Shown here: positions 1-60,860 of the stretch, piece after piece
How positions within the stretch are numbered: position 1 is the stretch's first letter
Layout of the letters: each line of letters begins with the position of its first letter
DNA from: Opisthorchis felineus
Lineage: Eukaryota > Platyhelminthes > Trematoda > Opisthorchiida > Opisthorchiidae
DNA length: 64,000 nucleotides
Assembly (NCBI GenBank): GCA_004794785.1
Contig: SJOL01007141.1
Coordinates: 919,763-983,762, forward strand
Reading direction: 5' to 3'
The notes under the pieces: generated by a model
The model's input: only the letters and a program-made list of their open reading frames with translations
Told to the model about the DNA's origin: nothing
Database searches by the model: none
Made by a program: the position numbers and the translations under genes

Positions 1-180
1 TAGACGTAATACACTACTCATAGGGTTGCTGAGTGTATTTCGCTGATTTTGTGCAATTTAGGTTCAAGTAGAATATAAGGTTGACGGAAACTCGGGGACT
101 GCACCTAATTGATGAGCCCGGAGAATGGCGAAACCGGTCGTGAGCTGTCGAAGCGTTTTCAGCAACCTTACGAGTAGTGT
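1..180 (+). ncRNA. Hammerhead-ribozyme repeat, copy 1 (reference copy)
   Basis: This copy shows the fold shared by the whole family. The arm AAGGTTGACGGAAACTC (77-93) can pair with GCGTTTTCAGCAACCTT (153-169) as an imperfect helix I. Between them lie the core TTGATGAG (first C of CTGATGA mutated to T, near 109-116), a short hairpin as helix II, CGAAAC (129-134) and the cleavage triplet GTC (147-149). This is the order of a type I hammerhead self-cleaving RNA. Bases 1-33 are an inverted copy of the distal end (ACTCATAGGGTTGCTGA against TCAGCAACCTTACGAGT), so the copy is bounded by terminal inverted repeats. Helix III is only about 2 bp. Such weak-helix-III hammerheads are known from Penelope-like elements and work best as dimers. 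The core mutation probably weakens this copy. Confidence 0.65.
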
Positions 181-1070
181 TTTGGGCCTAAAAATCAACC
201 ATAACGGAAATACGCACTGGATAAAACTAAGATTTCCGGTTTATTTTGGTCAGTACGGTTGTATGTAACAACTGAGTTATGATCAAAGCTGAACTGCCTG
301 GTTCAGTGCCCATTTATTTTTATTGACCTTTATTTTCACAACAAAACAAATACGCCTCCTCTGGAAGTTAGCTTTTTCGTGAATGAAACAGTAGTTGATG
401 CATGATAACAACACCACACCTAATCTATATTCCATTACAATTTTTGTTAAACCCTCTGAAAGAAACCTCTCTGTCAATACCAACCTCAAAGGACAAAGTC
501 TAATTGTATCCTGAAACGACCTGATGTTCATACGAAGATCAGTTGTTTCTTTTTGCTCACAAATCAGGTCCAAAGTGAAGATGTAGAGGTCATACATTGA
601 CGGCTAACAGATGACATATAATCTTCCGGCGAAACCTTGTCGGGTTAACTGACCTAACCAATTGACAAGTGGACAAAGACTGTAACTTGCCTCTCTGGGG
701 ATCAAGAATGACCTGGGTCGTTGTTGATGGTTGTGACATACAAAGCGACCTAGCTACAGCTAGGTTTAACCTTGGTCAGCTAAGCTGATATGCTCCCATG
801 CTAGTTTAAATGTATTCTATTTCGCCATAGTTATATGTATACAGACCAACGCGACTAAAGTGATCGACCCTGTTTAGTGCCATCCGATTGCCTGTTAACA
901 CAGAAAACGGCAACTACTTGTTCAAGCAGAGCCACGGTTTAGTCCACCCTATTCATAGGATTTTAGGGTATGACAACGAGGCTCCAGCCAGCGTGGAACC
1001 AGATTGACTGGGTGTTTATGCACTCTCTGATGGTGATGAAGAGATTTAGTGATCTCGTTGAGTCAGTCTA
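181..1070. other. Unassigned non-coding DNA
   Basis: No frame here resembles a known protein and no repeat seen elsewhere in the window was recognised. Open frames are about 100 codons or shorter and occur on both strands with no splice-site support. Confidence 0.5.
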
Positions 1071-1084
1071 CACTGAACAGCCGA

Positions 1085-1215
1085 GAAAAACGGTACAGCT
1101 GTTTCATCCTTTTTGAAGAACATCAGCAGTGCAAATCTAATAAAACCCAGAGAGTTTCGAACCCGTGACCTTCGCCCACTGCTTGATGACTTAACCGTTT
1201 GGCTACAATGTTGTA
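1085..1215 (-). mobile_element. tRNA-derived SINE-like element (Leu/Ser-like family), copy 1
   Basis: Read on the reverse strand this begins with AGCCAAACGGTTAAGTC, which resembles the A box of a tRNA-Leu/Ser head. It continues with GGTCACGGGTTCGAAAC, a B-box-like GGTTCGAAAC, and ends in a body with GCACTGCTGATG and GGATGAAACAGCTGT. The same order recurs near 28.0, 28.5, 29.5, 58.4 and 64.0 kb. RNA polymerase III heads of this kind are typical of SINEs, which are moved by LINE enzymes in trans. No terminal duplication was identified. Confidence 0.6.
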
Positions 1216-2009
1216 GGAAGCGTTTGCAAGATTGACCTTGGTTCCTGTAGAATGACGGAAACTTTGTGACCAATCCCCAAGGTCTCCGGTACTGTTTAAC
1301 AGTTTTGTTGATGCCCAGAAAGTACAACGGACGTTACACGCAAGTTAATCGAATCATGCGTATTTCCGCAACAAATTGAACTACAATCCAGGCTCTCACA
1401 CCTAAGACAACGATAAGTCTGCGGTCGGTAGGCACAGGAGTTTACCTACCTGACTGGCTCACATTGTCGCACGTTATTAGTTGGATGCTTTGGGTTGGAT
1501 GGAGAGAGAAGCCTTCGGGGTTTAGGACTTGTGGGGATGGATCGATGACGACTTGCATTGAGGAGTGGATGAAGTGATTTTATAGGATTCAGCACCTCAG
1601 TCCAATAAATCAACCCAAAAAAAACTTTACCTGTATCGTTTATCCACACCTTGAATATCACTGGGGCATATGAACCCTTTTTAAATCGGGCGCCATATAC
1701 GTGGATATTCTTAACAAACTCATCCACACTCAAAACACTTTCTGTGTCATCGCCAGTCCAAACTTAGTCAGTTTGTCAGTTACTATTTGCAGAAAGTACT
1801 GGGTAATACCTCATAAGTAACCTCGTTTTCCAGTAAATCAGTCGGAGGCTATCTTTGATCGCGATCTCTCTGGTTGCTGGGGTGTGGCCAACCCCATGTC
1901 CCTTGTAATAAGTTGCGTCTTCAGGTGTCTCTTAAATTTTGCCTTTGACGCAAAAGCTACTGCTTTTCTGATAAATCACTTAGCGAGTTAACAGACCTTG
2001 GGAACATTT
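1216..2009. other. Unassigned non-coding DNA
   Basis: No recognisable gene or repeat. A 95-codon reverse frame at 1446-1733 has no family resemblance and low-complexity composition near its end. Confidence 0.45.
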
Positions 2010-2815: not shown

Positions 2816-2914
2816 TAGTGCAAGAAGTTTAATTGAGTTTCATGCTGTCCCGTTACACAGAGTCCATTCCTTTGAATTCGGCGGCCCATTCCTTCTGTAA
2901 CTGACCTTTCCAAG

Positions 2915-3035
2915 AAGAACATAAGGCTGAGGGAAACTCGGGGAGTGCGCCTATGTGATGCGCTTAAAAAAAGGGCGAAACCGGCGGTGGACTGTCCAGG
3001 TAACAAACTTTCCAATACTTTGCCTGGAATGGTCA
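2915..3035 (+). repeat. Hammerhead-repeat copy 2, degenerate core
   Basis: The family backbone is clear: ATAAGGCTGAGGGAAACTCGG, then GGGCGAAACCGG (2973-2984) and ACTGTCCAGG. The CTGATGAG box is mutated to GTGATGCG near 2954-2961 and helix II is largely lost, so this copy is unlikely to cleave. It lies about 100 bp beyond the end of the CR1-type remnant. Confidence 0.6.
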
Positions 3036-5002: not shown

Positions 5003-5040
5003 GACGAGTTTTCAGCCAACTTATGAGTAGTATGCAACGT
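5003..5040 (+). repeat. Hammerhead-repeat fragment (helix I 3' arm only)
   Basis: GAGTTTTCAGCCAACTTATGAGTAG matches the distal helix I arm and terminal inverted repeat of the family, followed by the characteristic TATGCAACGT. The ribozyme core is missing. Confidence 0.55.
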
Positions 5041-5339
5041 CCGGCAACCTAACGATTTTGCCACTAAGCGCTGTCAGCGTTCAGCAGTTATTTACGAGAG
5101 CTAGGTAAAGTGTAGGCGATGCTGGATCACGATAACTGAAGAAATATCTGAGTTGTCATGCCATATGAAAGTTATCCCCACTAGGGTAGTGATGGTGATG
5201 TGATTTGTCTGCAGAGCAAAAAAGCGATCTGCCGGTTGTTATCAAAATTTATCTGACTGTTTGGAGTAACTTTTTGAGGTATTCAAGGATCTTCCTTGAA
5301 TACATTCGTTTTATCTCCATACTGTTTGTTATTCATCTC

Positions 5340-11000: not shown

Positions 11001-11312
11001 ACAACCCTAATTCTAGCGTCTTGCGGACGTATTGGCCCGATGAATCACTATGTCTCACTCTCTTGCTGAGCAGTTCACTCGCGAAAGATCACAACTGAGA
11101 CGGTATTTTGCAGCTTATCATGGCAAAGGCTGACATGAAGAACAGCCAACATTTAACGCACCTAGTTGTGTCAATGAAGCCATTTAGCCTTACAGCAGAT
11201 GAATGACGCTCCACTGACATTCAGTCGACTGCGATGCTCCAGAACTCACCGCACAAATACGCCGGTTTACTAAATCATGATTAGTAGAGAAAGGTAGAAT
11301 AAAACTAAATTT
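8099..11312. other. Unassigned non-coding DNA
   Basis: No recognisable gene or repeat in about 3.2 kb. The longest frames (149 codons reverse at 10028-10477, 96 codons forward at 9330-9620) overlap frames on other strands and show no domain, signal peptide or convincing splice sites. Confidence 0.45.
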
Positions 11313-11510
11313 ATAAAGGGAACTACTCACAAGGTTGCTGAAAACTCTTCGACCGCAACCTTGTGAGTAGTTTCCTTTATAGAAATATACTGCGATATCT
11401 CGAATATCGTACCAACTGAAACAAGAGGCGGCTTTTGTACGGCACATTCAGTTGAAGAATATCATAAACGAGAGTTTCAGTTGTCTCCCGTGAAAGCCAA
11501 ATTGATTTGC
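11313..11510 (+). repeat. Hammerhead-repeat copy with core deleted; near-perfect hairpin
   Basis: Bases 11313-11338 and 11355-11380 are 26-nt inverted arms matching at 25 positions, with a 16-nt loop (TGAAAACTCTTCGACC). The arms are the terminal inverted repeats of the family, and the loop retains only a scrap of the ribozyme. The unit body follows (GCGATATCTCGAATATCGTACC, AACGAGAGTTTCAG, GTCTCCCGTGAAAGCC) to about 11510. Confidence 0.75.
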
Positions 11511-11944
11511 AAACGAGTGTTTTTGTTGAAAATTAAGTTATTTATGTCTTTTCTGAGTGGCGTAATGCGGGTGAATGAGCTGAGGTTAGGTTCGATCTTG
11601 AATCTGTAACTTGCATCGACACAGAAGACGAAAGCTGAAAGATGCATTGCGAAACAGGTCCACTCATCATGGCCTTGTTTGGGCGGATTTTGCATAGTGT
11701 TTTCCTCACTTTGTCTGACTGTTGACTAACTTACTCTATAGCCCGTTTCTGTTTATTTTATATGACTTTCCAAATCTTTACATCCACATCCTTACACTGG
11801 CAGACACACATCCATACACCGGCGCTCGCGGTCTGGCAATTTGCTCAGTTCCATCATCGCTCACGTTCGAACTCCGTCGTTAAGTGACTGTAGTTTTGAC
11901 TAGGTAAACTGTTGTCAACTGCTGTGCGGCCTTGGTGGCTTCGG

Positions 11945-12065
11945 ATTGAGCAAATTAAACCCTATGTAGGGACAACTTGGAGGTGTACGTGCCTCATGAG
12001 CTGCAAGAGGAACAAAACTGGTGCTGGGCTCTCGAGGAATTTTAAGCAACCTTATGTATGTTGTG
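11945..12065 (+). ncRNA. Hammerhead-repeat copy, diverged
   Basis: GGGACAACTTGGAGGTGTACG, then CTCATGAG (11993-12000, one change from CTGATGAG), CTGC-AAGAGG, ACAAAAC in place of CGAAAC, GGGCTCTCGAGGAATTTT and AAGCAACCTTATG follow the family order. The core has two or more mutations, so activity is doubtful. Confidence 0.5.
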
Positions 12066-13067
12066 TCAATACAATGCATCGCGAATTCTGTCTGTCGGTG
12101 GAAGTCGGATTGCGATCATCAGCTTTTACAAACTAGATATGGAGATGAACTGTGTTCTCATACGTGGTGGACATAAACTCTGTTTACTTCTTATCACACT
12201 GTTGAAATTCCTTGGAATGTTTTATTTTTCGGCTGAATTGGGACTCGAAACTGTTATTTTCATCTTAAATCCACTGCAACTGTACAGTACAGTACCTAAC
12301 GATAGGGAGTACTGAACACGCGCGGAGAGCGGCGAAACATGCAGTCAAATGTCCCAGAACTGACAGCTGTCTTTGAGTAGAGTCAAGTAACCGGTAAAAA
12401 GTAACAAGTAAATAGACGGCAGAAGCTACAAATCAAGGTGCGTATGATCGATGTGAGACCAGCTGACAGTGATGGATAATTTGTTGTTATGGACTTACCG
12501 GATTGTTGTTTCACAAACTATTGCACTTGAGGTGTTCAGAAAGCCACCTGAAACGAAAACTGGGATTTGCTGGCATAAATAAACGAGAATACACGTGTGG
12601 ACCGTATCAGTGAAGTGATCAGTGAAGTGGGGAACGTCTGCAACTGATATTAACTATGCAGACTTCTCAAATACCCATCGCGCTGAAACAGAGCACCATT
12701 TCAAGCCGATTACCCGAACAAAACGGTGAAGGTTGATATCAGAGGACAAACAGGGTAAAAAAAACCAGACGAAGCTTGTGTGTGCTCATATCAGTGAAGT
12801 AATTCAATAAATGGTGCTACTTTCTCAGGTCAACACAACCAGTGTGGCAAAAGCGGTCGGCAAATGCCTGATCTGTCACTAGGCACACTCAGTCAGCTGC
12901 GTTCAGATCGTCGATAGGGCTGTGTAAACACTTTGCTGCACAAAATATGGGAGGGTTTGGCGATCGGTAAATAGCATACCACACCCTATCACCCGCAATA
13001 TAACCGGTTGGACAAACAGAGTCCTCATGTTTCTTGAATGTATCTGTTGTAGGTGGTCTCGGGAGTG
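12066..13067. other. Unassigned non-coding DNA
   Basis: Nothing recognised. A forward 85-codon frame (12058-12315) has a hydrophobic stretch but no supporting start context or splice sites. Confidence 0.4.
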
Positions 13068-13115: not shown

Positions 13116-14302
13116 GCACCGTGTGCGTGGGGACAAGTTCTGCCAAGAAGCATTTAACATATAGAATTTTGGTCCACAGCCCGTCGCTCAAGCATATTCT
13201 ATCACGTGAACAGGGCATGAAAGCGGAGTACTCAGTGGTATGAGACTGCCAACACTATCACCAAATCCAACTACAGCCACAGGCTACTTCCAACAAATTG
13301 TAACAGGCCTTCAGCAAGCACATTAGATGGCTCGGAGCTTCCTCAGAGTCACACCACGATATCAAAAGAACTATTGTGACAGGAGGACATTTAATACTTT
13401 CGTTAAAACCGGAGATACCGTTTAGCTGCGGAGCGGTAGAACTGACTCAAATATTCCAGACAATCTATAATCATAATAGAAAGACTAGTTGCGGCAGGAA
13501 GGCTGTATACCGCTCAAATAACAGTTTAAGCAACGCTAGATTTACTCATTTCAACGAACTCAAAGCCTGCAGTGAGAAAACTGAGGTGACTCAAGCGAGA
13601 AGCCATCAGAAAGCGCCCTAAAGGTTGACATTTAGGGTAGGGCAATGTACGGTGACAGCAAAGGCAGAGTGCGAACCTCTTTGTACGCTAACCTATTCTC
13701 TACTTGGTTAGCAGACTTCTTGGGTGGCGAACCACCGGTATATTTAGCCGAATGATCAGCACCAGCTGACCTGCATGCAAATTCCCATTACTATTCCACC
13801 AAATTCCTATTTTTATCAGTAAAGTTCTTTTGACTGAAACAGTTCTCTTCACTTGAAATAGAATGTTCATATTAACTGTAAATCTTTAATTCGTCTCGTA
13901 TCAATTGTTCCAACTGTTTGATGGTGAAAATAAAAAACGCCTATTTGTCTGCCAGAAGCTTTTGTAACAGGAATTTGAAATTTTTCACTAAAACGTGCCT
14001 CGTAGAGAGCTCTCAAAGAGTACCGTCTAAGAAAGTGTGAACACCAGTAGAGTTCGATAGATGGGAGCTGAACTTCCAGTCTGTCCCAATTTCAGAATGC
14101 GATGCAGAGAAGCCAAGCCATAAAGACAACAGCACGTGGTTTGTTAAAGAAAACCGTTACAGTACCAAGCACCTTATTCCGATGAAAGGTTACAAAACAC
14201 ACAAAAAGCAGCTTGGAACCATGAAAGTGGATCAGTACCGCAAAAGACTCCTATGGATTACAACAAACCGAGAAAATGTGATTGTATTTATGTGAGAGTC
14301 TT
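13116..14302. other. Unassigned non-coding DNA
   Basis: No repeat or gene recognised. An 81-codon forward frame (13376-13621) has no identifiable motif. Composition becomes AT-rich near 13790-13990. Confidence 0.4.
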
Positions 14303-14642
14303 CTATTGAGGAAAATGTTGGTAGCTCAGGTAGCGTAGACGGTCGTTGGCTTGTTCGCTGAGCTGGGCAATTTGATTGCAAACGTTTCATTGCCAATCGA
14401 GGTGACATCATCAGTGCGTTATTGGGGAGCGTAGTGATGCGTAGCGATGGGTTGGTGGTTGTGCCAACCAAAACCACCAACAACCAAAAACCACAACCAC
14501 CACCACCACAACCACCGACCCATCGCTACGCATCACTACGATCCCCAATAACGCACTGATGATGTCACCTCGATTGGTGATGAAACGTTTGCAATCAAAT
14601 TGCCCAGCTCAGCGAACAAGCCAACGACCATGTGAGAGTCTT
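14290..14642. mobile_element. Inverted dimer (palindrome) of a dispersed repeat with a 13-bp flanking duplication
   Basis: Arms at 14341-14463 and 14507-14629 are reverse complements with only a few mismatches over 123 bp. They are separated by a 43-nt spacer rich in CCA/CAA. The 13-mer ATGTGAGAGTCTT occurs at 14290-14302 and again at 14630-14642, as expected for a target-site duplication. The left end extends outward (GGAAAATGTTGGTAGCTCAG) as does the related copy at 18.5 kb, whereas the right arm stops at GACC. Each arm carries, on one strand, CTGATGATGTCACC...GGTGATGAAACG. Related copies lie near 18.4, 39.7, 43.8 and 53.8 kb. The mechanism that made the inverted dimer is unknown. Confidence 0.8.
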
Positions 14643-15589: not shown

Positions 15590-15850
15590 ATAGGGAACAT
15601 ACCTGATGAGCCCCAAGAAGGGTGAAACAGGTCATGGGCTATAGAAGAGTTTTCAGCAACTTTATGAGTAGTGTGTTACGTCTACACAGTGTATTGCGAT
15701 ATCTCAAATATCGTACCAATTCAAATATTCGGCAGCCTGATCCAACACATTCGGTAGAAGAGCAGCATTAGAATATACACATTCAGGTGGGGTTCAGGTG
15801 AGTCTCCCGTGAAAAATTTGGTATGCAGATAAGTGCAACCATCGAATTTC
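15590..15850 (+). ncRNA. Hammerhead-repeat copy with exact CTGATGAG core and full body
   Basis: CTGATGAG is exact (15603-15610). Helix II is CCCC-AAGAA-GGGT, followed by GAAAC (15623-15627). The expected GTC has become ATA (GGGCTATAGAAGAG), which would impair cleavage. GAGTTTTCAGCAACTTTATGAGTAG then leads into the best-preserved unit body: TGTTACGTCTACACAGT, GCGATATCTCAAATATCG and GGTGAGTCTCCCGTG. The upstream helix I arm is lost. The length from the cleavage site to the end of the body gives about two thirds of the unit. Confidence 0.7.
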
Positions 15851-16320
15851 GTGCATGATTGCATGGCAACGAACCTTCATTGCTCAACACGGATTTTTTG
15901 CTATATATGCTGCCCGCGCTGTTGCTGCTTGCGATGATGGTAACGACAATGATTAGCATCACCTATACCGCTGTTGAATGTTCGTCAGCAGACTACCTGA
16001 TAAACACTGGGTAGAACCTGACCGATATTAAGCGGCCGCTGTTTTAATGATCAACAGCATCGACAACGGAGAAATCTTTGACGGATGACCCCTTGCTTCA
16101 ACGTCTATCTCTGAACCGGTTCTAGTTTTTACTGTACCACTTGGTGTTTTTATTGACTTTTACAACTATCGTTCTCAGGACTGATAAGAAGCCGGGGTTT
16201 TTGACCCTTAGGTTGTGCGCTAAACCATCTAATCTCGGACTTGAATCCACCGTGATTTGGACCTATAAGTTTGTCAGTGTAGGTCACTTGGCGACTTGAC
16301 CTAAATCACCAAAAGTGTCC
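15851..16320. other. Unassigned non-coding DNA
   Basis: No gene recognised. A tRNA-like sequence around 16195-16265 (GGTTGTGCGCTAAACC, GGACTTGAATCC) might be a decayed SINE head but has no second copy in the window. Confidence 0.35.
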
Positions 16321-17314: not shown

Positions 17315-17405
17315 CAAGCCATTATAAACGAGAGATTCAGCTGAATTCAGTGGAGTCACTTGTCAAAACCATATTCGTGTGCAACTGAGAGTACTTGTTG
17401 AATGA
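17315..17405 (+). repeat. Hammerhead-repeat body fragment
   Basis: CCATTATAAACGAGAGATTCAG, then TCAGTGGAGTCACTTGTC and GTGTGCAACTGAGAG match the body segment that precedes the ribozyme in other copies. The ribozyme itself is absent. Confidence 0.6.
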
Positions 17406-18352
17406 ATGTCATTTAGAGTGACCGTCAATTTTAAAATTGAATCGACACTGCTCTGTTACCGAGTAAGTTTGACTAAATCTGGCCTCCTTGTTCTCATTGT
17501 TTTAGCCAATTCGTTGTCGTGGAAGAAGTGTGAGTTTTTCGGTTCTGTTTTATATTCCTACGTGTATGAGGAGAGTACTCGCATACACCAACGGAGTGAT
17601 TTTACAAAGTTTTATCGGTTACCACAGATTGTATAAGGTCCACGTCTAACATCTTGCACCCAGTGTATCCGATAATATTTTCGCCAGTTTTTCATCGACT
17701 CTCTAATTCCCTCTCACCTCTTGATGGTAGTCACACCACATTAAGATAGTCCTTGGAATAGCCCCTTCACATGCAGCTTTCCTATAAAGAACGGAAGGAC
17801 GAACTACGATGCATCATGTGGCAAAAAGCTGAGAGCCTCAAAATTTATTGACCGAACACGGAACTTGATATCACGTCACAAAACATATTATCTTGGTTCA
17901 TAATAGTTGGTCCATAAATTGTGTTTCTTCTGGAATGTTTATCTTCCGGCTGTTATACAGATGGCCTTTCTTAATCGACTGCACTGAAGGCAAACAGCTG
18001 TAAATTCCGTCATTCTTGTCGGATTTCACAGGGCAATTGGAACATGGATGAAGCTGAGAAACTCCTTGTCAAGCGACCTTAAGGTCATTCATCACTGCAG
18101 AATCTTCAACCCATCAGATTCTCCGTTTCGGTTGTAATTTGCTCCCTGTTTCAGTGAACAGTAAAAAGATGCAGCCTGTGAAGAGAATGCCCCCCGTGTT
18201 AGCAACAACCTGAGGGGGTGCGTGGCTTTCACAAAAAAACAGGTCACCCTGAAAAGAGACTGAATACTTCCTCAAGCTATCTCCTCTTTGGTGGATTATT
18301 CCCTACGATTCTCTATTTTTGGAGGTTTCGCCAGCTGTCGTCCAACAACATG
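17406..18352. other. Unassigned non-coding DNA
   Basis: A 76-codon forward frame (17406-17636) has a hydrophobic centre but no recognised motif. No repeats identified. Confidence 0.4.
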
Positions 18353-18545: not shown

Positions 18546-19125
18546 GTTTACTATAATGGAGGCAGATACTTTTCTACACATTGTATCTTATTGAAAATCC
18601 CAGAGTTTAAACCGAAAAACAAGGTCTGTCAACCCAGGGCAAGACATTTATGTCGAATGGGAATCAAACTATCTTGAGTATGCGTATCCCGAAAAGATTT
18701 CTTGCTACGTTTGCACGTAACTAAAGTTCAACCAAAGTAATAGTGTGACAGTAGTGCGGTCACTGAACGGGACTTTTGTTGAATAGGTCACTAATTTATA
18801 CCGGTGCCTGTTGTACAGCCAACACACACCTGCATTATACATAAAAAATCACGTCAAACGCATTCTGAACCTAACGGAAGCGTGAATTGCTCACTAATTG
18901 TTTCGGATACTCATATCTGCAAAGCATCCGGGTGGGAACTAGAAGCAAACGCCCCGACCAGAAAAATAAAGCTTGGAGTTCGCGAAGTGCACTCTAACGG
19001 CAGGCTTAGTTAAATCTCAGCTAAATCCCTCTTTTATGATATTAGTCTACCAAATGCGCTGCGTTATTCATACGAGAGTGATCTGAACGTGAATCCCACA
19101 AACGTTGCGACCACCCACAAAGCTT
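18546..19125. other. Unassigned non-coding DNA
   Basis: Only short frames; nothing recognised. Confidence 0.4.
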
Positions 19126-19372
19126 CCGGATTCATTCAGTTGTAGAAAACCATAAACGGCGGATTCGACTGGTATTCAGTTGAGTTTTCCGTAAAAGCCA
19201 AATCGGGGTCCAAATGAGGGTATTTGTTGACTTTTGTACAATTTGGTTCATGCAGAACATGGGGTTGACTGAAGAGAAGCTCGGGGACTGCGACGAACTG
19301 ATGAACCTTAATAGGAAAGAAGAAACCGATTGTAGGCTGTCAAAGAGTTTTCAGCAACCGTATGAGTAATCT
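19126..19372 (+). ncRNA. Hammerhead-repeat copy with exact CTGATGA core
   Basis: The body (CATAAACGGCGGATTCGACTG, GTTTTCCGTAAAAGCC, TTGTACAATTTGGTTC) leads into the ribozyme here. CTGATGAA lies at 19298-19305, GAAAC at 19322-19326 and the cleavage triplet GTC at 19339-19341, followed by AAAGAGTTTTCAGCAACC. Helix II (ACCTTAATAGGAAAGA) is partly unpaired. This copy shows that the body lies upstream of the ribozyme, while at 15.6 kb the same body lies downstream, so the family is circularly permuted. Confidence 0.7.
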
Positions 19373-19769
19373 CTTCCAAGAAAGCATGAAGTTACCAGGG
19401 GAAGCACACATACTCAAGCGGTGGTTGAGAACTGAAAAATATTCAGCGAGCTACTTCGTAAAATTACCGTGCATTCACTGAAACGAAGCTTCTAGTCTGT
19501 CATAGACTCAAAGGATACTATAAAACTGCAGATATCTTGAGAAAGTATTCATACCTTTTTAGTAGATAGATCATTTTCTGAGGCAGCTCTTACAAGTAGA
19601 CAGTGTTAACTGCGTTCACAACACACGTCTGACATTTAGGGCTTTACGAATTAACGAGAACCAGAAAACTTAGTCCTCCATGTCGAGAAAAAGTTCTGCT
19701 AATAGATCGTAAACTCAGATTGTAACTTTGATCCGTGTTTTGCTGGGTTTTTAAGAGGATAGGTTTTAT

Positions 19770-22879: not shown

Positions 22880-23050
22880 ATTTTCGCAAATGAAACTGTT
22901 CACAAGGACATTGAAAACTCTTCGACAGCTGGCAACCGTTTTCGCCCTTCCTATTCGGGCTGACCAGGTAGCTGTGGTCCCCTAGTTTCCCTTCAGTCAA
23001 CGTTACATTCTGTTTGGACCCAAATTCTACGAAATTCTCCAACTACGCGA
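22880..23050 (-). repeat. Hammerhead-repeat copy, reverse strand, degenerate core
   Basis: On the reverse strand the order is AGCTACCTGGTCAGCCC, a hairpin CCCGAATAGGAAGGG, CGAAAACGG and CAGCTGTCGAAGAGTTTTCA. The GTC triplet and distal arm are intact, but CTGATGAG has become CTGGTCAG. Upstream body sequence (TAGAATTTGGGTCC) extends to about 23050. Confidence 0.65.
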
Positions 23051-25853
23051 CATTTGTAGGATTCACGTTCGCAACACTGTCGCATGAACAGTCCTCCATC
23101 CATCCTAACGCGTTGATCAGGATAGCCTGATGTAAAAATGAACTGCCATTCCGAACATATGCTCCGTGGTCGTGTGAACATGTAGTGCAGGTCGCTTCGG
23201 AGCAGCAACGTGGAGACATCGGACTATTGAATACTGCGTTGTTAGAACTCTAAGCAAGTGTGTATTTGCTTTCTATGCGAAGCTACAGTCATTCACTGTC
23301 AGAAAACCCCATGTCATTTAGGAAACCTTGGTTCCGCCACGATATCGATTCAAAAGATGATTGGAGACTGATTAGTCTTATCTAGGTGTTCAAAGTATTT
23401 ATGTGATTAGTCCATTACTGCAGTACGTTATTGTCTGCAATGTGTCTACGATCTCCGCTGGACGTATGGAACGCATTGTCGATCTAATCCAGCGGCCACA
23501 CGAAGTTAATCATCTATTTGGACTTTTTGTGGCGAAGCTGTTTATCTTGGTAACTGTCGTGTGGGCTGAACTGGTAACTTGCCTGACATTACAATGGAAA
23601 CCGCTATGTAGCAACGTAAAAAGGCGTGAGGCGAGTCACTCCTTGGTAGCCTGCTACTTGTGTAATTTATTTCACCTCCGTAATGTAGACAGGCCAGATG
23701 TAGTGAACTTGAACAGCTGGAGGGCAAAATTATCTCTTCAAAGTCCTGCACCTAAAACAGAAGACAGCAAGGATGCGAGTCAATCAAGTTGGACGGATGG
23801 CCACAAAAGAGGAGACATAAATATCAATCATCCAAGAGCTATTAGTGAGCATATTGATCTCAGTGTAGACAGTTTTGCAGCTTAAAAAAGCTGTTTTCAA
23901 CTGCTCCTTATATTGTATTCATCTTGATCCGATTTGTTGACCTGGTGTTCACATAAATTCCAGAGAGTTCAGCAATTTGTCTTTCAATGAGCCAAGCGAC
24001 GGAGCACAACACCGAAGGCGATCACACGCTGGGCAACTGATCACGATATAACTCCAAGCTAGCCATTTTTCAGCGGCTGTTTCGGTTTACTAATCACACG
24101 TCACCCTACCAGTGAGTTCACAACAGGCGCCAAAGTCAGAAACATTTTACCAGAAAGTTGAAAATGGCACCTGTGGGATAATACACCTGGTCTGACGAAA
24201 AATCTATGCTGGTTTGGATATTCCGGTACACTCCAAAACGATGCTGTACAGGTCGCGGAATAGAAATAATTTTTTAAGCTAGTGGTGGTCCTGGGCCATT
24301 TGAGGCAAGCTCAAAAGATCAATTAAAAGGTTAGAGAAGAGTTGATAGAATCGTCCAATTGTAACTATTGGTGTTAGTTAGTTCCGTAATATGGAGATCG
24401 CACCTCCCTTACGATAGGAACATCTGGCATGCTTATTCCTCATCTTACCCCTAAAACCATCTTACAATACTGTTATGCTTGGTATTTGGCTTGCTGTTCC
24501 ACCCACTATGAAATATGAAAAGATCTAATGACTTCGGGCAGTCCTCAATGAAAAAAATTGCCGTAATTTGTAGAGCGATCACAAAATTCTCCACAAGGTC
24601 AAGCCAGAATCCTCGTGACGGGTCGAAAGGCGCCGAGTTGAATGTTCTCGATTCTGGTTGGCTCCTACTTTGACCAATGAGAGCATGCTTTCTCCTTTTT
24701 CGCAGCCGGTTCGCGACACACCCGTTCAAGCGACCTAATGATCGCTTATATCGAGCGGCTAATCTCCGGACAATTACATATCATATAATCATTCAGTAGT
24801 GCTGAGAAATCATCTAAATGTCGCCGTCGCATAGAATTCCTCAAGATCTTTCGCGGACAACACAGTACGGACGTTCGACTCAAGTAGTCAAGTCTAAATA
24901 GTTAGCAATTTTTCAACCTGCAAAGGATTGACGATTAACTAAAGCTTGAGTGTATAGAAGTATTTTTTCATTCGCCTTACTCATAAAGTCAAGGAAATCA
25001 CTACCAATTGTTATGAAATTCGGAGACCAGGTCTATCAATGAGCTCCATAAATAGAAACACTGATGATTGGCTGTCCCGAGTTTTCATCGGCTTTAAGAG
25101 TAGCTCGAACATCCAGAATTTGATCAGAATTGGCTCTCCTGGTGCACGACAGAAAATGTGATGCCACATTTATTCCACGGTAAAGTGGCCATGAATTCAT
25201 CGAACGTCACAATTAAAAGTCGGATTTACTGGCTGCCACTGGCGAGTTAGGCTTTCCTTCAAATTCAGCGTACCTGATCTCGTCTGACACGAAAATTTGA
25301 AAAGGTCATGAAATAAATTAAAGTTCAAGGATATCAGTCTACTCCGAAAAGTGAAGATACACTTCAAATCACATTAGTTTTTGTGACAAATCTTTAAAGC
25401 AACGTTAAAATTTTGCGGAATAAGGAATGGTAAGAGGAACAATCATATTAATAACTGGCCTGGTACTTAAAACCCTTTTGTTTAAAGAAATACGGAAAGT
25501 TGGGATGGAATCTGTAACAGACGAACATCACCTAGACATGCGGCTTACCGCACAACGGGTCCCTTTCAAGGTTCAAATAATATAAAACATTTCGAAGTCG
25601 ACTGGCCTAGTTGAGATCTATAGCTGTGTAGGCCAATTCCAGGCATGCGTAAATTTCACTCTGCTAGGTTGGATAATTCGACTCACTTGCGCATGGTGAG
25701 TAGGTTCTTATATTAGAGGTGACTTCGGAGACCATTGTTCATGAATACACTTATGCATACATATGTTGTATCAAACATAAAATAACCCTCTAAACAGTCA
25801 GTTAACGTGCCATGGAAGACAAATTTGAAGGTAAAGCACATTCTGCTGTATAG
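23051..25853. other. Unassigned DNA with one 160-codon frame
   Basis: The frame at 23403-23885 (+) is the longest in the window not explained by a repeat. Its first in-frame ATG is near 23463. It has one hydrophobic stretch (GLFVAKLFILVTVVW) and an acidic/serine-rich end, with no recognised domain. No donor or acceptor was chosen. The rest of the span shows nothing recognisable. Confidence 0.3.
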
Positions 25854-28784: not shown

Positions 28785-29060
28785 CAACAGACGTAATGTG
28801 CCACACATAGGGTTGGTGAACACTCTTCAACAGCCCACAACAAGTTTCGTCAATCCTATTCGGGCTTATTAGGTAGGCGCAGTCCCCGAGTTTCCGTCAA
28901 CCTTATGTTCTATTTGAACCGAAATTGCACGAAAGTTGACTGATACACCCATCCGCATACCAATTTGGTTTTGACGGGCGACTCACCTGGGACCCAATTG
29001 AATCTCTGTTTTAGGGCGCTCTTATTCAACTGAACCTTATGAGTGTGTAACACTCAAGTT
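28785..29060 (-). repeat. Hammerhead-repeat copy, reverse strand, long
   Basis: Reverse-strand order: body (AGAGATTCAATTGGGTCCCA, GTGAGTCGCCCGTCAAAACC, TTTCGTGCAATTTCGGTTC), helix I arm AAGGTTGACGGAAACTCGGG, core CTAATAAGCCCGAATAGG, ACGAAAC, then GTTGAAGAGTGTTCACCAAC. Two core changes (CTGATGAG to CTAATAAG, GTC to GTT) are present, and GTT is still a permitted NUH site. The copy also holds a partial forward terminal repeat at 29031-29052 (CTGAACCTTATGAGTGTG). Confidence 0.7.
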
Positions 29061-31224: not shown

Positions 31225-31357
31225 TCATTTGCGTATCACGGGAGACCCAACTGAATCGATTTATGATATTCTTCAACTGAGTGTGACGCACAGAGCCTGC
31301 TTCATGTTTCAGTTGGTATGATATTCGAGATATCGCAGTATATTTTCATAGAGGAAA
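31225..31357 (-). repeat. Hammerhead-repeat body fragment, reverse strand
   Basis: ATACACTCATTTGCGTATCACG, then ATGATATTCTTCAACTGAG and GATATTCGAGATATCGCAG match the reverse complement of the unit body. It ends before the terminal inverted repeat and ribozyme. Confidence 0.65.
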
Positions 31358-32159: not shown

Positions 32160-32397
32160 TAACACTGTACTCATAAGGTTACTAAAAAGATAACCTTCGA
32201 TGACAACCTTATGAGTAGAGTGTTACCCTTAGAGTCTATTGCGATATCGCATATATCATTACAACTGGAATATGAGCAGGCCCGCAGCACACCCAGTTGA
32301 AGTGGGCCATTATAAACGAAAGTTTCAGCTGGATTCAATTGGTTTCCCTGTCAAAAGCAAATTTGTGTGCAACTGGGTGTATTTGTTGAATACCGAG
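32160..32397 (+). repeat. Hammerhead-repeat copy with core deleted
   Basis: ACTCATAAGGTTACTAAAAAG and CAACCTTATGAGTAGAGTG are inverted terminal repeats around a short loop, as at 11.3 kb, and the body follows to about 32395 (GCGATATCGCATATATC, AACGAAAGTTTCAGCTGG, GTGTGCAACTGGGTG). Two independent copies have lost the ribozyme in nearly the same way. Confidence 0.7.
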
Positions 32398-44565: not shown

Positions 44566-44722
<157 letters not shown>

Positions 44723-45300: not shown

Positions 45301-45417
45301 ATGAATCGGTCACAATCTTAAGTGAATTTCACAGAATATTGAATCCAAGCGACCGTAGCGCGATTGATAAACACTTTTAGGCACAAAACGGAAATATGCA
45401 ATATTCTTGAAGGAAAC

Positions 45418-45630
45418 AGCTCATATAGTCGCTGAAAACTCCTTGACAGCCCAAAAACCGGTGTCGCCCTTTCCCTTCGGGTTCAATAGGTAGGCGCATT
45501 TCCCGAGTTTCCGTCAACCTTATTTTTTACTTGGTCCAAATTGTACAAAATTCATGAAATACACTCAGCCGCACGCACATTCACTTGAAGAATATCATAA
45601 ACGAGAGATTCAGCTGGAATTCAGGAGATC
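45418..45630 (-). repeat. Hammerhead-repeat copy with inverted body segment
   Basis: The ribozyme part is reverse-oriented: GGAAACTCGGGAAATGCGCC, then CTATTGAACCCGAAGGG and GGGCGACACCGG, with TGTCAAGGAGTTTTCAGC. CTGATGAG has decayed to CTATTGAA. From about 45580 the body switches to the forward orientation (ACTTGAAGAATATCATAAACG, AGAGATTCAGCTGG), so two units meet head to head. Confidence 0.7.
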
Positions 45631-49192: not shown

Positions 49193-49390
49193 GAAATACA
49201 CTCAATTTCACACCAGTTTGGTTTTAAAGGAAGACTCAGAGGAATCCCAGGTGCATCCCCTGTTTACGATGTTATCCCGCTGAATGTGCTGCACAAAGGT
49301 CGTCTACTTTTTCAGTTGGTATGATATTCAAGATATCGCTATATCTTTTCTTGAAAGAAACTCCTTATAAGGTTGCTGATTCTCCGAAGA
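49193..49390 (-). repeat. Hammerhead-repeat body abutting PLE-A
   Basis: GAAATACACTCAATTTCACACC, CCGCTGAATGTGCTGCACAA and GATATTCAAGATATCGC follow the reverse complement of the body, ending in ACTCCTTATAAGGTTGCTG, the terminal repeat, where the ribozyme would start but is broken off. It begins within a few bases of the last Penelope-like RT sequence. Confidence 0.75.
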
Positions 49391-50334: not shown

Positions 50335-50585
50335 TGTCTGACTAGTTCTCGATAAGTAATTCCATGTGTATACGAATTTGGTTTTGACAAATCTCTCGTT
50401 TATAATGGTCTGCTTCAACTGGATGTGCTACACCAAGCCACCTCATGTTTCACTTGGTACGATATTTGAGATGTCACAATACGTTGTTGTGCTGATATGA
50501 CATGCTACTCATAAGGTTGCTGAAAACTCCTTGAAAGTCCACGACCGGTTTCGCCCCTCTTGGAGCTCATCAGTTGACTAATCGA
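50335..50585 (-). ncRNA. Hammerhead-repeat copy with intact core, reverse strand
   Basis: This is the best-preserved catalytic core in the window. In reverse: CTGATGAG (50573 down to 50566), helix II GCTCC-AAGA-GGGGC (five pairs, one wobble), CGAAAC (50553-50548) and CGGTCGTGGACTTTC, giving a TTC cleavage triplet, then AAGGAGTTTTCAGCAACC. The downstream body continues to about 50335. The 5' helix I arm is cut after GTCAAC, so helix I cannot form fully in this copy alone. Confidence 0.75.
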
Positions 50586-50884: not shown

Positions 50885-50935
50885 GGATGTAGACGTAATA
50901 CACTGCTCATAAGGTTGCTGAAACTCTTCTATGTT
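50885..50935 (-). repeat. Hammerhead-repeat terminal fragment
   Basis: TAGACGTAATACACTGCTCAT then AAGGTTGCTGAAACTCTTC matches the reverse complement of the end of the unit, identical in layout to bases 1-33. Confidence 0.7.
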
Positions 50936-51059: not shown

Positions 51060-51230
51060 TCAACTCGAATTCACCGGAACCTCGTTATACTACTCTTTAA
51101 CTGAATGTGCAAGTACCAAGTGAAACTGATGGGACTCCGGAGACTAGGCTTACCTGATGAGCCCAGACAAAAGTGAAACCTGTAATTGGCTCTCCAGAGT
51201 TTGCACTGGCCTTATGAGTGTGCTAAAGCT
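51060..51230 (+). ncRNA. Hammerhead-repeat copy with exact CTGATGAG core
   Basis: CTGATGAG is exact (51154-51161), followed by CCCAGACAAAAGTGAAAC with a poor helix II (GCCC/AAGT) and GAAAC at 51175-51179. The GTC has become CTC (GGCTCTCCAGAG). CAGAGTTTGCACTGGCCTTA is a decayed distal arm. Upstream the helix I arm is reduced (GGGACTCCGGAGACTAGGC). Confidence 0.6.
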
Positions 51231-51289
51231 TACTTCCACATCCTGAACACCGTGCTAACTGGAGTTTGAGGAGGCCTTTGCACGACATA

Positions 51290-51350
51290 CTTTGTTAAAG
51301 AATAATACAGACGAGAGTTTTAAGTGACGTTCAGCCGAGTCTCTCGATGA
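51290..51350 (+). repeat. Hammerhead-repeat body fragment
   Basis: AAGAATAATACAGACGAGAG and GTTCAGCCGAGTCTCTCG correspond to the middle of the unit body, about 60 bp after the preceding copy. Confidence 0.45.
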
Positions 51351-52078
51351 TTTGCTGCTGGGAGAGGGTTACTGTGCAATACTTGCTGCCATCGTTTCAA
51401 AGAGTTAAGGGATTCCCAAATTTTGGCGTAAGAAAATCTCTTCTTATCGATGAAAGAAAAGTCTTTAAAATGTGGTAGTTTATTCAGTAATCCAACAGAC
51501 GTGAAGATTTGTTTTGCAGGAAATTTGTTAAGCGGTCACTGCATGGTGACGCGCTGCCTATTAACCCCGTAGATTTGTTGTATTCAGGTGGACTGGTATA
51601 GCCCTGTTTAAGAAAAAAAAACCATGCGGCTGTCACCAAAATGCAGTGGTGACCTGATTGTATAGAGGTCAGCAAAAGACCATTACTACTACAAAAGAAC
51701 TACACATATGCTTATTAAGACGTCCTATATCTGTTGTTCTATTTGCGTTGTGCCTTATTAAAGATTTGACCAAAGTGGCTGACCTTAGGTATAGCAGAAA
51801 GAATCTGCTATGCAGCTACCGATCAAAGTTCATACGAATCACCGCCCAACACAATGGCATGTTGAAATACAAGGTCTCTTTTTTAACGGTCCTCATTCGG
51901 GGACCGCATAGGGTCAGCGGTTTTGAGCGCTAATCTTTAAGGCCGCTCAGCAGACGAACGGAAAGAGTTAGTTATGTGATTGAAATGTTTTTTCTTTTGT
52001 AGATAGACTTTCCGATATTCTCACCTGCTAACCCATTGTTTCACCTCCTGACTCAATTAACCGGTACAAATTCTAATG
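51351..52078. other. Unassigned non-coding DNA
   Basis: A 91-codon forward frame (51658-51933) without recognised motifs. Nothing else. Confidence 0.35.
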
Positions 52079-52245
52079 AAAGAAACTACTCACGAGGTTG
52101 CTAAAAACTTTTCAACAACCCATGATCTTTTTCCACGGTCTTGAGGCACATCAAGTAGCCGTAGTCCTCGAGTTTCCGTCAACTACTTAAACCCAAATTA
52201 CACGGAATTCGACATATACACTCATTTCTACGCCACTGTGTTATA
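52079..52245 (-). repeat. Hammerhead-repeat copy, reverse strand, degenerate
   Basis: ACTACTCACGAGGTTGCTAAA, TTTTCAACAACCCATGATC and CCTCGAGTTTCCGTCAAC show both helix I arms in reverse orientation. The core (CTTGATGTGCCTCAAGACCG) retains only TGATG. CGAAAC is destroyed. Confidence 0.6.
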
Positions 52246-53784: not shown

Positions 53785-53860
53785 GTCCGAAGAGATTGGC
53801 AAATCGGTTGAAAAAATTTCGCCCCCAGTCGAGGAGACATCATCAGTGCTCAGTCACACA
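53785..53860 (-). mobile_element. Decayed copy of the palindrome repeat
   Basis: The reverse strand reads CTGATGATGTCTCCTCGACT, GGGGGCGAAATTTTTTCAAC and CGATTTGCCAATCTC, preserving block order and spacing with the 39.7 kb copy. Confidence 0.55.
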
Positions 53861-54844: not shown

Positions 54845-54980
54845 TACTGAAAAATGAGGCGGCCTGGTGCAGCACATTCAGTTGCCTGGAAACATCACAA
54901 AAGAGATGTTCAGCTGGGTTCCAGGTGAGTCTCTCGCAAAACCAAATTTGTGTGCAGATGAGTGTATTTCGGAAACTGAG
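54845..54980 (+). repeat. Hammerhead-repeat body between two Penelope-like fragments
   Basis: AAATGAGGCGGCCTGGTGCA, GCACATTCAGTTG, TTCAGCTGGGTTCCAGGTG and AGTCTCTCGCAAAACC match the body exactly in order. It lies between PLE-B (reverse) and PLE-C (forward), about 80-100 bp from each. Confidence 0.75.
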
Positions 54981-55980: not shown

Positions 55981-56930
55981 ATTGTGCTTAACAAAGAAAA
56001 CTCTGTTGTGGTATCCAGTGGCCAATCTAGTGTAAGACGAATAAGTGGTGCTCACGAGTTTACTCGGTAATACCAGTACAAAGAGGCCTCATGATTTGGA
56101 TTCTTGGGCACAGTCAAACTGATGAAGTTGGCTTTAGTGGCTAGACACGACTAATGGTTTCTGAATTCTCGTGATCTGATCAGCGTTCATGGGACATTAG
56201 GAAAGTTTTGTTATGTGAGTGGCGTTTTCATGATCCGTAGGAACCAAGCTGGGGCAATATTTCAATTTGTCACCAAACAACCTCCACAGAAATATGGTAT
56301 TTATATTTGAAGCTAAAACAAAAAACAGCAGGATGGTCTTTGGTATCCCGCTGACCTTTTGACAACATTGCTTTCTGTGGCGTCTAGGGACATTCCAAAT
56401 GATTCAGACAATATATGTATTTCTCTGTACTCTGAAAAGGATACCGGCTTCAAAACTATGTAACAAGTTGCATCAGATAGAAGCACGGTAGACCTAGACG
56501 TTCGTCCACTGAAGGATATTTTAATGTAGAATGGGTGCTTACCCAGATTTAGTGAAATGCATTTCAAACCCAGAACAACTCGAGCTGTATTTTTAAATGT
56601 TCCCCGAAGACTGACTTACCTTCCATTGCCTTTCAAAAGTGTTCTCTACCATCAAGCATTTTTGGAACGCGACACTAAAATAGACATTGAAGGCCATCCG
56701 GTTGATGGTTACGGAGGAATCCATGCTTATTTGCAGTACCTTAGTGAAGGATCGCGTGACTCTACTCATCAGTGGTAACGTCATTCATCAGCTTGTTTTT
56801 ACCTGCAGAGCCAGGTTTATCAGCCTGACCACGAGACGTCTCGGGGCTAGTATTGCCAAACTTATCCCTAAGTGGCTCCAAAACTCAGGCATTGGTAATG
56901 AAACAACGCATTGCGTCCAATTGGGGTCGA
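55981..56930. other. Unassigned non-coding DNA
   Basis: Forward (56557-56778) and reverse (56313-56567) frames have mixed composition but no recognised motif or clear splice sites. Confidence 0.35.
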
Positions 56931-56934
56931 CGTA

Positions 56935-57056
56935 AACATAAAGTTGACGAGAACTTAGGGACCGCGCCTAACTGATGAGTCCGTGAGGGATAAAATCGAC
57001 AGTGGACTGTCGAAGAATTTTTACTAACTTTGTGTGTAGTGTTCCTTCAAGTTTTT
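56935..57056 (+). ncRNA. Hammerhead-repeat copy with textbook helix II
   Basis: CTGATGAGTCCGTGAGG (from 56972) is identical to the classical hammerhead core plus helix II found in plant-pathogenic and satellite RNAs. The expected CGAAAC is mutated to ATAAAATC. Helix III is extended in this copy: CGACAG-TGGA-CTGTCG (56997-57012) is a perfect six-pair hairpin that includes the GTC triplet at 57009-57011. Helix I arms AAGTT/AACTT remain. The core change probably abolishes cleavage, but the copy shows the ancestral architecture most clearly. Confidence 0.75.
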
Positions 57057-58929: not shown

Positions 58930-59187
58930 CGTGGTTATTACGTTTACATCACACTCGTTTGAACAGTCGTCCTCCTGTTCTGGTGCAAGTATTCTGATGA
59001 GCCCATACCAGGAGGGTTGGGGAAGCATCGGACTCGAATTTTCTGTTATTAGAGCTCATCAGCCATGCATATCCTTGGCCATGCGGAGTTTCGAACTCCG
59101 CACGTCTGACTTGCGAGGTGAGTGTGTTAGCACTACTCGACTACTCCGGACACATCCGAATTTTCACGTCTGAACAGGCGCACATTT
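58930..59187 (-). mobile_element. SINE-2 element, copy 4 (best preserved)
   Basis: In reverse: CCTGTTCAGACGTGAAAATT, head GGAGTAGTCGAGTAGTGC, AGACGTGCGGAGTTCGAAAC with a good B box (GAGTTCGAAAC), GCATGGCCAAGGATATGCAT, then CAGAACAGGAGGACGACTGT and the distal end CAAACGAGTGTGATGTAAAC. The two ends are themselves related (GTTCAGACGT, GTTCAAACGAG). About 255 bp. Confidence 0.7.
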
Positions 59188-60370
59188 GTTTATCACCACC
59201 AGGACAGGAGGACGATATGGACGTGAATACATAAGTGTAGTCACCGGCAAGTACTGGTCTGTTACACTGATCACCACAACCTTGAAATTGTTGTTTCAGC
59301 TTCAGGTTGTAACACACAAAATCATGATATTTTGGTCATTTATGGAAATTAGTCTCAACAGGATTGCAGCTCAAAACGCAAAAACTTGAACAGCCTTCAT
59401 AGGCAGCTCGTTGGCTTCCCTTTTGCCGCACGTTTACAGTACAATGACGATTTTCGCTATTCTGTTGATCATACTCTTAGAAGGCGCTTTGCTCTCGTTC
59501 ATGAGACAACTCCAAACCTGAGTGAAATACTTAAAGCAGGGAGTTGTGGTGAACAAGTCATAAAATTTCGTAAAATTACACGCAGCCTCGGAGGTCTTGA
59601 GCTCAATACCTTTGACAAAACGTACCTGACTTGAAGCCTTTTGATGAGGAGTATTCTTGTCTGAGTCCTTGCATAAATCATGCAACCAGCTACTGGTCAC
59701 CTGCTGTGATGCAAACATAGATAGCATATTTTGAGGATGGCATTCAAAGAATTCATACAAGTGTTCATATAAGGTAAGTTATTTGGTCTGCTGAATTGTC
59801 AGATCGTACAATGCGATGCCTCTTAGTTTGGTCACAGTTGGCGAGGTCATTCTTCGTTGCCACTTCTCCTTTTTGGTTAAATGACCCAGGATCAGACTCA
59901 TCATGGTCTGAATAAACGTGTTGAATGTGGTCAGTAGTGAATGCATGCTGACCGACTGCATCATTCAAATTCGTTTCTGGTGGAAGAACTGCCATTTATA
60001 CTTTCGAATTCGAACACGGCGGCTTTTGAGCTTTCGCATATATTAGGTGCAAAAACAATCGCATAACTTTCAGGAAAGCAGTGACCTTTAATTTGACTCA
60101 AAGTACTGTTTTGACTTGTCCCTTTTAGGGAAAAGTTTATTGATTGTTGGCCTTGTCAGGCCTCGTTTAATAAGATGCTTGCCCAGAGCTGTCCTCTGTT
60201 CTTCGGGCTTCATGCAAAAGGAAAGTTTGCTCCTGGCAGGTCTTTTATGTTCAACATCAGAAGTTTGCTCGAATGGGCTGGGATTACCGAGTTATCTATC
60301 AGAGGAACAAGCGTATTTACCACCTGACCAGTGTAACAAGATGATTGAAAAATAACCTGAGTTTTGTGGA
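59188..60370. other. Unassigned non-coding DNA
   Basis: Frames at 59386-59634 (+) and 59434-59760 (-) overlap in opposite directions. Neither is recognised, and no splice support was found. Confidence 0.35.
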
Positions 60371-60374
60371 AGTA

Positions 60375-60535
60375 ACACATTGCTCATAAGGTTGCTGAGA
60401 AAGCTTCTACAGCCAACGACCGGTTTCGCTCTTCTTGGTGTTTATCAGGTGGGTGCACTCCCCGAGTCTCCCTCTACCTTTTGTTCCAGATGAGACCAAA
60501 CTGCACGAAATTAGCGAAATACACTCATTTGCATA
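60375..60535 (-). ncRNA. Hammerhead-repeat copy, left half of an inverted pair
   Basis: Reverse strand: AGAGGGAGACTCGGGGAGTG, CACCTGATAAACACCAAGAAG with CTGATAAA in place of CTGATGAG, GCGAAACCGGTCG, then GGCTGTAGAAGCTTTCTCAG and CAACCTTATGAGCAATG. The triplet is GTA, still a NUH site. Helix II is weak. Confidence 0.65.
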
Positions 60536-60860
60536 CCAATTTGGATTTGAATGGAAAATGAAGTTTAGGGACACTCGGGGACTGCGTCCACCCCATAATC
60601 CCCAAGAAAGGCGGAACGGTCGCTGGCTGTCGAGGAGTTTTCAGCAGCCTCATGAGTAGGGTACTATTTCTATACAATGTACAGCGATACTGGCCTACCG
60701 TACGAACTGAAAAATGAGGAGGCCTGGTGCAGCACATTCAGAACACAATAAAAAACCGAGAGATTCAGCTGGGATGCAGGTGAGCCCTCCCCCCTCCTTC
60801 GTAAAAACCAAACAGGCAAGCAACTGAGTGTATTCCGTCAAGCTGAGCTTCCATTTTGTG
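60536..60860 (+). repeat. Hammerhead-repeat copy, right half of the inverted pair plus body
   Basis: ACACTCGGGGACTGCGTCCA, AGGCGGAACGGTCGCTGG and CTGTCGAGGAGTTTTCAGCA, with CTCATGAGTAGGG at the end. CTGATGAG is lost (CCCCATAATC). The body follows to about 60850 (TGAGGAGGCCTGGTGCAGCA, GAGAGATTCAGCTGGG). With the preceding copy it forms a palindrome of about 270 bp with its centre near 60520. Confidence 0.7.

Follow-up and report, generated by a model that had tools for sequence, protein, structure and literature searches.

Metazoan retrozymes without long terminal repeats (LTRs), as described in part of the account by Cervera and de la Pena (2020, PMC7229834), consist of a type I hammerhead ribozyme in a non-coding unit of 150-450 bp with a GC content below 50%. 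They give strongly self-paired RNA and, where duplications are present, target duplications of more than 4 bp, and the amphibian members have a weak helix III with dimer action. The enzyme that spreads animal retrozymes is an open question. A 2020 review (PMC7761336) states for metazoan retrozymes that no conserved motif reveals an autonomous partner, and part of PMC7229834 presents Penelope-like elements (PLEs) as a strong candidate on the grounds of shared hammerheads, tandem copies and co-occurrence. In the relevant portions of two PLE studies (PMC11167929, PMC3846280), copies are inverted and head-to-head, 3' starts are internal and lie soon after the hammerhead, only one arm is extended, and short target duplications occur at some loci. 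Here, we analyzed 64,000 nucleotides of the Opisthorchis felineus genome (contig SJOL01007141.1, forward-strand positions 919,763 to 983,762; hereafter the window), which carry a dispersed family of 305-bp repeats whose consensus contains a type I hammerhead. All results on the family refer to this one 64-kb window. The family resembles retrozymes in its type I hammerhead, unit size, GC content and weak helix III, and PLEs in its head-to-head copies and in 3' ends soon after the hammerhead; it may also share the strong self-pairing, the extension of one arm and the short target duplications. We consider it reasonably probable that it is a retrozyme-like element of about 305 nt, non-autonomous and without coding sequence, moved by PLE-type machinery. 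The initial annotation of this DNA had named it the main candidate for an undescribed system, which is not supported: metazoan retrozymes and PLE hammerheads are already known kinds.

Set beside the retrozymes in that part of PMC7229834, the family differs in having no head-to-tail tandem copies (the normal arrangement of retrozymes) in the window. Further differences are that helix III has no loop, that helix I is very long and that copies form head-to-head inverted pairs. Compared with PLEs, as far as those portions of their literature describe them, it has no reading frame, its longer arms extend by 93-168 nt instead of 30-40 nt, and its helix I carries a long extension. Trematode repeats with hammerheads are also represented by the Sm-alpha/W elements of Schistosoma (part of PMC8490949), and part of PMC4918200 reports schistosome repeats with a tRNA part. 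In contrast to the Sm-alpha short interspersed element (SINE), our consensus has no match to the A/B box patterns of RNA polymerase III (pol III); ARAGORN, run with the bacterial code, found 0 tRNA genes in the window.

The family was delimited by iterated local alignment with a cut-off of 118, the maximum of six mononucleotide shuffles on two strands each, which gave 33 local matches. Three were removed: two opposite-strand shadows of the self-complementary stem, at 172-75(-) and 28805-28907(+), and a marginal match at 20938-20700(-) with a score of 121. After two pieces of one copy had been joined, 29 arms remained at 21 loci, 8 of them paired and 13 single, spanning positions 1 to about 60837. 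The arms are 68-95% identical to the consensus, and the unit closes on itself at 305 bp with circularly permuted copies (unit positions above 305 run into the next unit). It is non-coding, with 46.6% GC; read as a tandem, its longest stop-free stretch is 46 codons on the ribozyme strand (+) and 68 on the other (-). These observations confirm that the hammerhead repeat family is real, as the initial annotation had it: a dispersed repeat of about 300 nt with exact CTGATGAG at 15603(+), 51154(+), 56972(+) and 50573(-), all of which we recovered. Its at least ten copies with ordered signals became 15 copies with a recognizable core, and its further dozen correspond to the other 14 of the 29 arms, which are body or terminal pieces or have no core.

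Unit positions 91-185 lie upstream of the ribozyme in the copies at 19133 and 29034 and directly downstream of it at 49379, 15600 and 32204, with no coding sequence between. A segment found on either side of the ribozyme would call for a template that is circular, tandem or terminally repeated. No accepted copy among the 29 arms in the window is longer than one unit. The stretch 60485-60837, which covers 346 unit positions in a permissive alignment, was rejected as such a copy, its first 52 bases overlapping the opposite arm in a self-complementary stretch.

The majority consensus consists of CTGATGAG, a GCCC/GGGC hairpin, GAAAC, CGGTC and GTGGGC. It began as a guess by eye, and an independent MAFFT consensus of 15 aligned cores (17 spans, minus two shadows and one core-less arm, plus one) agrees with it around the core except at the H of NUH. 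In these 15 cores the core columns are C 12, T 13, G 10, A 13, T 15, G 11 and A 13, and the GAAA columns hold 12, 14, 13 and 15. The consensus satisfies a type I descriptor requiring, in order, CUGANGA, a helix II of at least 3 bp, GAAA, a helix III of at least 3 bp, NUH and a helix I of at least 4 bp; it has 6, 4 and 3 bp in helices I, II and III. None of 20,000 dinucleotide shuffles of the consensus did so on either strand, and no single copy, nor any stretch of the window, satisfies the full descriptor. The type I order of signals and the long helix I that had been claimed are present in the consensus, and by inspection the arms AAGGTTGACGGAAACTC and GAGTTTTCAGCAACCTT pair as described, with 14 Watson-Crick pairs, 1 wobble and 2 mismatches. 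Folding of the consensus with RNAfold produced the long arm, a GAC/GTC stem, the 6-bp core helix I and helix II unprompted. The circular minimum free energy of the consensus RNA is -101.7 kcal/mol (z -4.5 against 100 mononucleotide shuffles), with 63.6% of it paired. Exact CTGATGAG occurs 13 times in the window against 2.27 expected by shuffling, 4 of the 13 within the family. The other 9 sites, outside the family, are also over-represented (9 against the 2.27 expected for the whole window).

Cleavage most likely takes place at the first site, GGTC^GTGGGC, rather than at the later CTGTC^GAAGAG. Only the GGTC site gives a 6-bp core helix I (GCCTAC/GTGGGC) together with a loopless ACC/GGU helix III. 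The later GTC (unit 289-291), tried as the cleavage site with a helix I of its own, was rejected, as 37.5% of its cells are paired compared with 63.3% for the GGTC site; if the initial annotation meant the GTC before the GAGTTTTC arm, the same values for the core helix make that not the best site. Since ACC and GGU are adjacent, helix III would pair only between two molecules or units. On this point the consensus bears out the initial annotation: its helix III is short, self-complementary and consistent with action as a dimer. The minimal hammerheads of PLEs (reportedly Lunse 2017 and Cervera 2014) are likewise described as having a reduced helix III, so that cleavage needs dimers. Helix III pairing between two ribozymes is also described for newt and PLE hammerheads in parts of PMC6155905 and PMC7761336.

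Rfam gave no match at gathering score in the window, so the scan proposed in the initial annotation did not recover any copy at that level. At E<=10, the whole window yielded two Rfam matches, both to Hammerhead_HH9 (RF02275) and both on this family: 50576-50540 (25.1 bits, E=0.067) and 15591-15649 (21.2 bits, E=1.2), against a gathering score of 52. HH9 is the best sub-threshold match (25.1 bits against 52) and shares core and loop spacing and the ACC/GGU helix III. In its alignment at 50576-50540, GGUC is the cleavage triplet and ACC/GGU forms helix III, and the sub-gathering matches support the GGTC register. In narrower scans, 60340-60740 matched HH9 (16.5 bits, E=0.25) as well as a microRNA model (E=0.69), and the copy at 1-400 had no match.

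We then considered where copies end. The 3' ends were counted on 28 arms, leaving out the one cut by the window edge, and the 5' starts on all 29, with the permissive start for the left arm of pair P7 (pairs are numbered P1 to P8 along the window). Two preferred 3' ends were defined, site A (unit 14-48) and site B (unit 183-202), site A lying about 50 nt past the cleavage site and site B about 155 nt further. Fifteen of the 28 arms end at site A, within 35 nt. In a scan for the best window of given width, applied alike to observed and random sets, 1 of 20,000 random sets was as extreme. Seven of the 28 end at site B, four at unit 141-150 and two elsewhere. The four include the copy at 31236, which is directly followed by AAATGAGTGTATTTG and so probably reaches site B after a deletion. 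The 5' starts of the 29 arms are not clustered (P ~0.13 and 0.41). Starts copied from ribozyme-cleaved 5' ends were considered and set aside: 8 of 29 fall at unit 278-305, and the clustering scan is not significant. A variant next to site A reads approximately TTTCCTTCAAGAA instead of GTGTTACGTCTA in copies ending near 45412, 49380, 52079, 19376 and 11322, which suggests at least two subfamilies. An exact 23-mer of the site-A arm had no match in genome and viral contig collections, which may omit the source genome.

Copy orientation, which the initial annotation did not treat, is far from random. Neighbours within 100 bp form 8 head-to-head pairs and none in the other three arrangements, and random placement of 29 arms gave a mean of 0.76 such pairs and a maximum of 6 in 100,000 trials. 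This count uses the permissive left boundary of P7; its strict gap is 177 bp, which leaves 7 pairs. The left arm of each pair is on the minus strand and the right arm on the plus strand. P1 comprises an arm at 1..32 (unit 301 to 332), cut by the window edge, and a copy at 33-190 (unit 176 to 332) that ends at site A and has its hammerhead region at 77..173. In P2 (11322..11356, unit 286 to 320; 11355..11524, unit 304 to 488), P3 (17249..17315, unit 278 to 343; 17320..17414, unit 106 to 202) and P5 (32145..32188, unit 298 to 341; 32204..32384, unit 305 to 488), the left arm ends at site A and the right at site B. The same holds for P8, in which both arms have a core (60362..60536, unit 164 to 337, HH9 16.5 bits; 60537..60837, unit 197 to 490). 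P4 has a left arm at 18997..19062 (unit 85 to 150) and a right arm with a hammerhead core that ends at site A (19133..19375, unit 91 to 325). In P6, the left arm (45391..45574, unit 166 to 353) has a core and ends at site A, and the right arm lies at 45575..45628 (unit 88 to 141). The left arm of P7 (50880..51120, unit 79 to 341, strict part 50890-50929) has a degraded middle and ends at site A, facing a right arm with a core (51107..51346, unit 204 to 454). Across P2-P8, exactly one arm stops at site A in 7/7 scorable pairs and its partner continues beyond that site, an outcome reached in 484 of 50,000 permutations of end classes; the longer arm extends 93-168 nt beyond the arm that ends at A.

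Most of the single copies also end at these sites. Copies with a core that end at or near site A lie at 11974..12089(+) (unit 231 to 352, near A), 22895..23056(-) (unit 169 to 320), 52065..52240(-) (unit 157 to 341) and 56910..57042(+) (unit 189 to 322). Site A is likewise the end of the short copy at 5003..5041(+) (unit 292 to 330), of the copy at 25015..25103(+) (unit 229 to 319) with its degraded core, and of 28789..29034(-) (unit 93 to 331), which has a near-complete head and hammerhead. The body copies at 49193..49379(-) (unit 301 to 489) and 54846..54971(+) end at site B, and the copy at 15600..15855(+) (unit 248 to 503) starts at the CTGATGAG core and ends near it. The remaining single copies are those at 2911..2996(+), with a core (unit 207 to 291), at 31236..31357(-), a body copy covering unit 19 to 141 in the strict alignment, and at 50390..50573(-) (unit 251 to 428), which has the best Rfam score of any copy. 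Inverted partners were sought beside all 13, and none was convincing; two weak matches had p=0.050 and 0.025 among the 13 tested. Target duplications are few, 6 of 20 loci reaching p<=0.045 against 380 crossed flanks. The two best are at single copies, a perfect 14-bp duplication GGAAACTGAGGTTC (14/14) at 54846..54971 and one of 10/11 bp at 52065..52240. Duplication boundaries were set by eye, and the one at 54845 was adjusted after its duplication had been seen.

In the process we propose, a master RNA would carry a type I hammerhead with a helix I (GCCTAC/GTGGGC) that the long arm lengthens, a GCCC/GGGC helix II and a loopless ACC/GGU helix III. Cleavage after GGTC would need two ribozymes together, as helix III could not close within one. 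PLE-type machinery would cut the target, and reverse transcription would start at internal site A or B, downstream of the ribozyme, and stop at differing 5' positions; often both target strands would be used. The outcome would be head-to-head pairs in which one arm ends at A and the opposite arm is longer. Part of PMC3846280 describes rotifer Penelopes as mostly head-to-head, joined at palindromic junctions, accompanied by duplications of 8-10 bp and in some cases carrying a tail on one of the inverted arms, and part of PMC11167929 describes an anole PLE enzyme that cuts and extends both strands and has two internal start sites.

Several observations weigh against this proposal. The ranges of sites A and B were drawn after the end positions had been seen, 3 of the 7 longer arms stop at unit 141-150 and not at site B, and where the extension reaches B it is about 155 nt, compared with a PLE tail of 30-40 nt. 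Duplications at 6/20 loci compare with about 1 expected by chance, and P4 (13/16) is the one locus of the six that belongs to the 7 pairs tested. With 0 same-strand neighbours within 100 bp among the 29 arms in the window, there is no head-to-tail tandem. None of ten window open reading frames (ORFs) tested has a reverse transcriptase (RT) or GIY-YIG match in Pfam, and no PLE protein was found among them. On the ribozyme side, the H of NUH is without a majority base (C 6, T 4, G 3, A 2 of 15; non-G in 12/15). In the RNAfold minimum-energy fold of one unit, helix III is not formed and the core CUG pairs with CGG instead, so that the fold predicted for a monomer is not the active one. Finally, 69.4% of helix cells are paired in the 15 aligned cores, and covariation is 0.183 compared with 0.191 in shuffles, 355 of 500 shuffles being as high. 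Two results named beforehand as counting against the claim, no significant covariance score for any copy and no covariation in the helices, are what we found for the copies. Versions with slid helices pair less (35.5-53.0% of cells), a difference that a shared consensus is enough to explain.

Decayed copies of one master would also lack both an Rfam score and covariation, and the descriptor test on the consensus is therefore the informative one. Since covariation does not exceed that of shuffles, the copies give no sign of selection after insertion and point to a structured common ancestor. From their sequences, they appear to be independently decayed fossils of one ribozyme-bearing ancestor.

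Among other explanations, a SINE-like element moved by a long interspersed nuclear element (LINE), its pairs being twin-priming 5' inversions and the hammerhead a passenger, seems to us unlikely, though it keeps the most weight of the alternatives. Target-primed reverse transcription by a LINE would also account for 5' truncation at variable points, for the clustering of 3' ends and for duplications of 8-14 bp, and the window has an RT fragment at 6919-7674 with relatives among fluke proteins. LINE twin priming fixes one outer end only, and the other outer end falls at a random place. Here, both outer ends are placed in 7/7 pairs, A on one side and the longer arm on the other, which counts against twin priming. 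No A run longer than 4 occurs in the 20 nt after any of the 28 copy ends, and the absence of A/B box patterns from the consensus also speaks against this origin. PLE-type insertion fits the pattern better than LINE twin priming. The ORF at 6919-7674 has 29 homologues, some with RT domains, and has itself no Pfam match; the homologues with a named organism, from Opisthorchis viverrini and Clonorchis sinensis (37-72% identity), rank behind four JGI proteins. Repeats overlapping this ORF recur at 63649-63912 and 19797-19953. Only 5 ORFs of at least 150 aa occur in the 64 kb, as is typical of eukaryotic DNA.

Only slightly less plausible, and still improbable, is an origin from an autonomous PLE with its coding part outside the window, of which the repeats would be solo pseudo-LTRs. 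The PLE-like insertion pattern would agree with this, and the hammerhead of the anole PLE spans the junction of pseudo-LTR and ORF (part of PMC11167929). However, unit positions 91-185 lie both before and directly after the ribozyme without coding sequence between, and stop-free stretches of at most 46 codons on the ribozyme strand and 68 on the other argue against it. A foldback or miniature inverted-repeat type of DNA transposon, hammerhead-like by chance, would account for the near-perfect hairpins at 11312-11381 (96% complementary) and 32153-32232 (86%), but 13 of the 21 loci are single arms with a convincing inverted partner for none, arm lengths are unequal within pairs and the consensus ribozyme is left unexplained, so that we regard it as very improbable. 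That the hammerhead likeness is chance in a structured repeat, as the missing gathering-score matches and covariation might suggest, is barely credible given that 0/20,000 consensus shuffles satisfy the descriptor.

If the retrozyme-like element moved by PLE-type machinery is the right explanation, it adds a hammerhead retroelement family in a fluke, and preferred 3' ends together with head-to-head pairs offer a test of the spreading enzyme on any genome. More tentatively, and with slightly less than even confidence, we suggest that PLE enzymes mobilize animal hammerhead retrozymes and that two fixed internal starts on retrozyme RNA, used from both cut strands at once, leave their fingerprint, head-to-head pairs of a short and a long arm. 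In the open-licence literature, nothing was found that joins Opisthorchis with a hammerhead ribozyme; for Clonorchis and hammerhead, titles and abstract openings named no ribozyme, and one Schistosoma japonicum egg-RNA paper may mention it in its text.

A second repeat, CTGATGATGTCACCTCGATTGGTGATGAAACG..., occurs at 14556(+), 14414(-), 18428(+), 39779(-) and 53846(-), in regions 14290-14642, 18371-18539, 39702-39781 and 53784-53849. By inspection, it contains a hammerhead-like CTGATGA, a stem and GAAACG, and it has an ATG at the place reported for the start codon of the anole PLE. No hammerhead model of Rfam matched it; the matches were to microRNA and other models, all under the gathering score, with MIR8643 the best at 68.8 bits (gathering score 135), and we put them down to its near-perfect palindrome. 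Two copies form a head-to-head pair at 14303..14629 (14303-14463 minus, 14507-14629 plus), in which 123-nt arms are 97% alike and the minus arm is 38 nt longer. The pair is flanked by a perfect 13-bp target duplication, ATGTGAGAGTCTT, at 14290..14302(+) on the left and 14630..14642(+) on the right. This repeat is probably a PLE pseudo-LTR/ORF junction. The pair, a single one, shows a young insertion with the PLE pattern, which suggests that PLE-type machinery once worked in this genome.

Other features of the window include a perfect CAT microsatellite of 52 units at 44566-44722 and nested inverted repeats at 27935-28611 (34-48 nt, 73-85% complementary), near the hammerhead family copy at 28789. 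Another dispersed repeat lies at 26309-26554, 32703-32823 and 58940-59179, with copies 69-74% alike; the last of these contains CTGATGAG at 58994 and fails the hammerhead descriptor.

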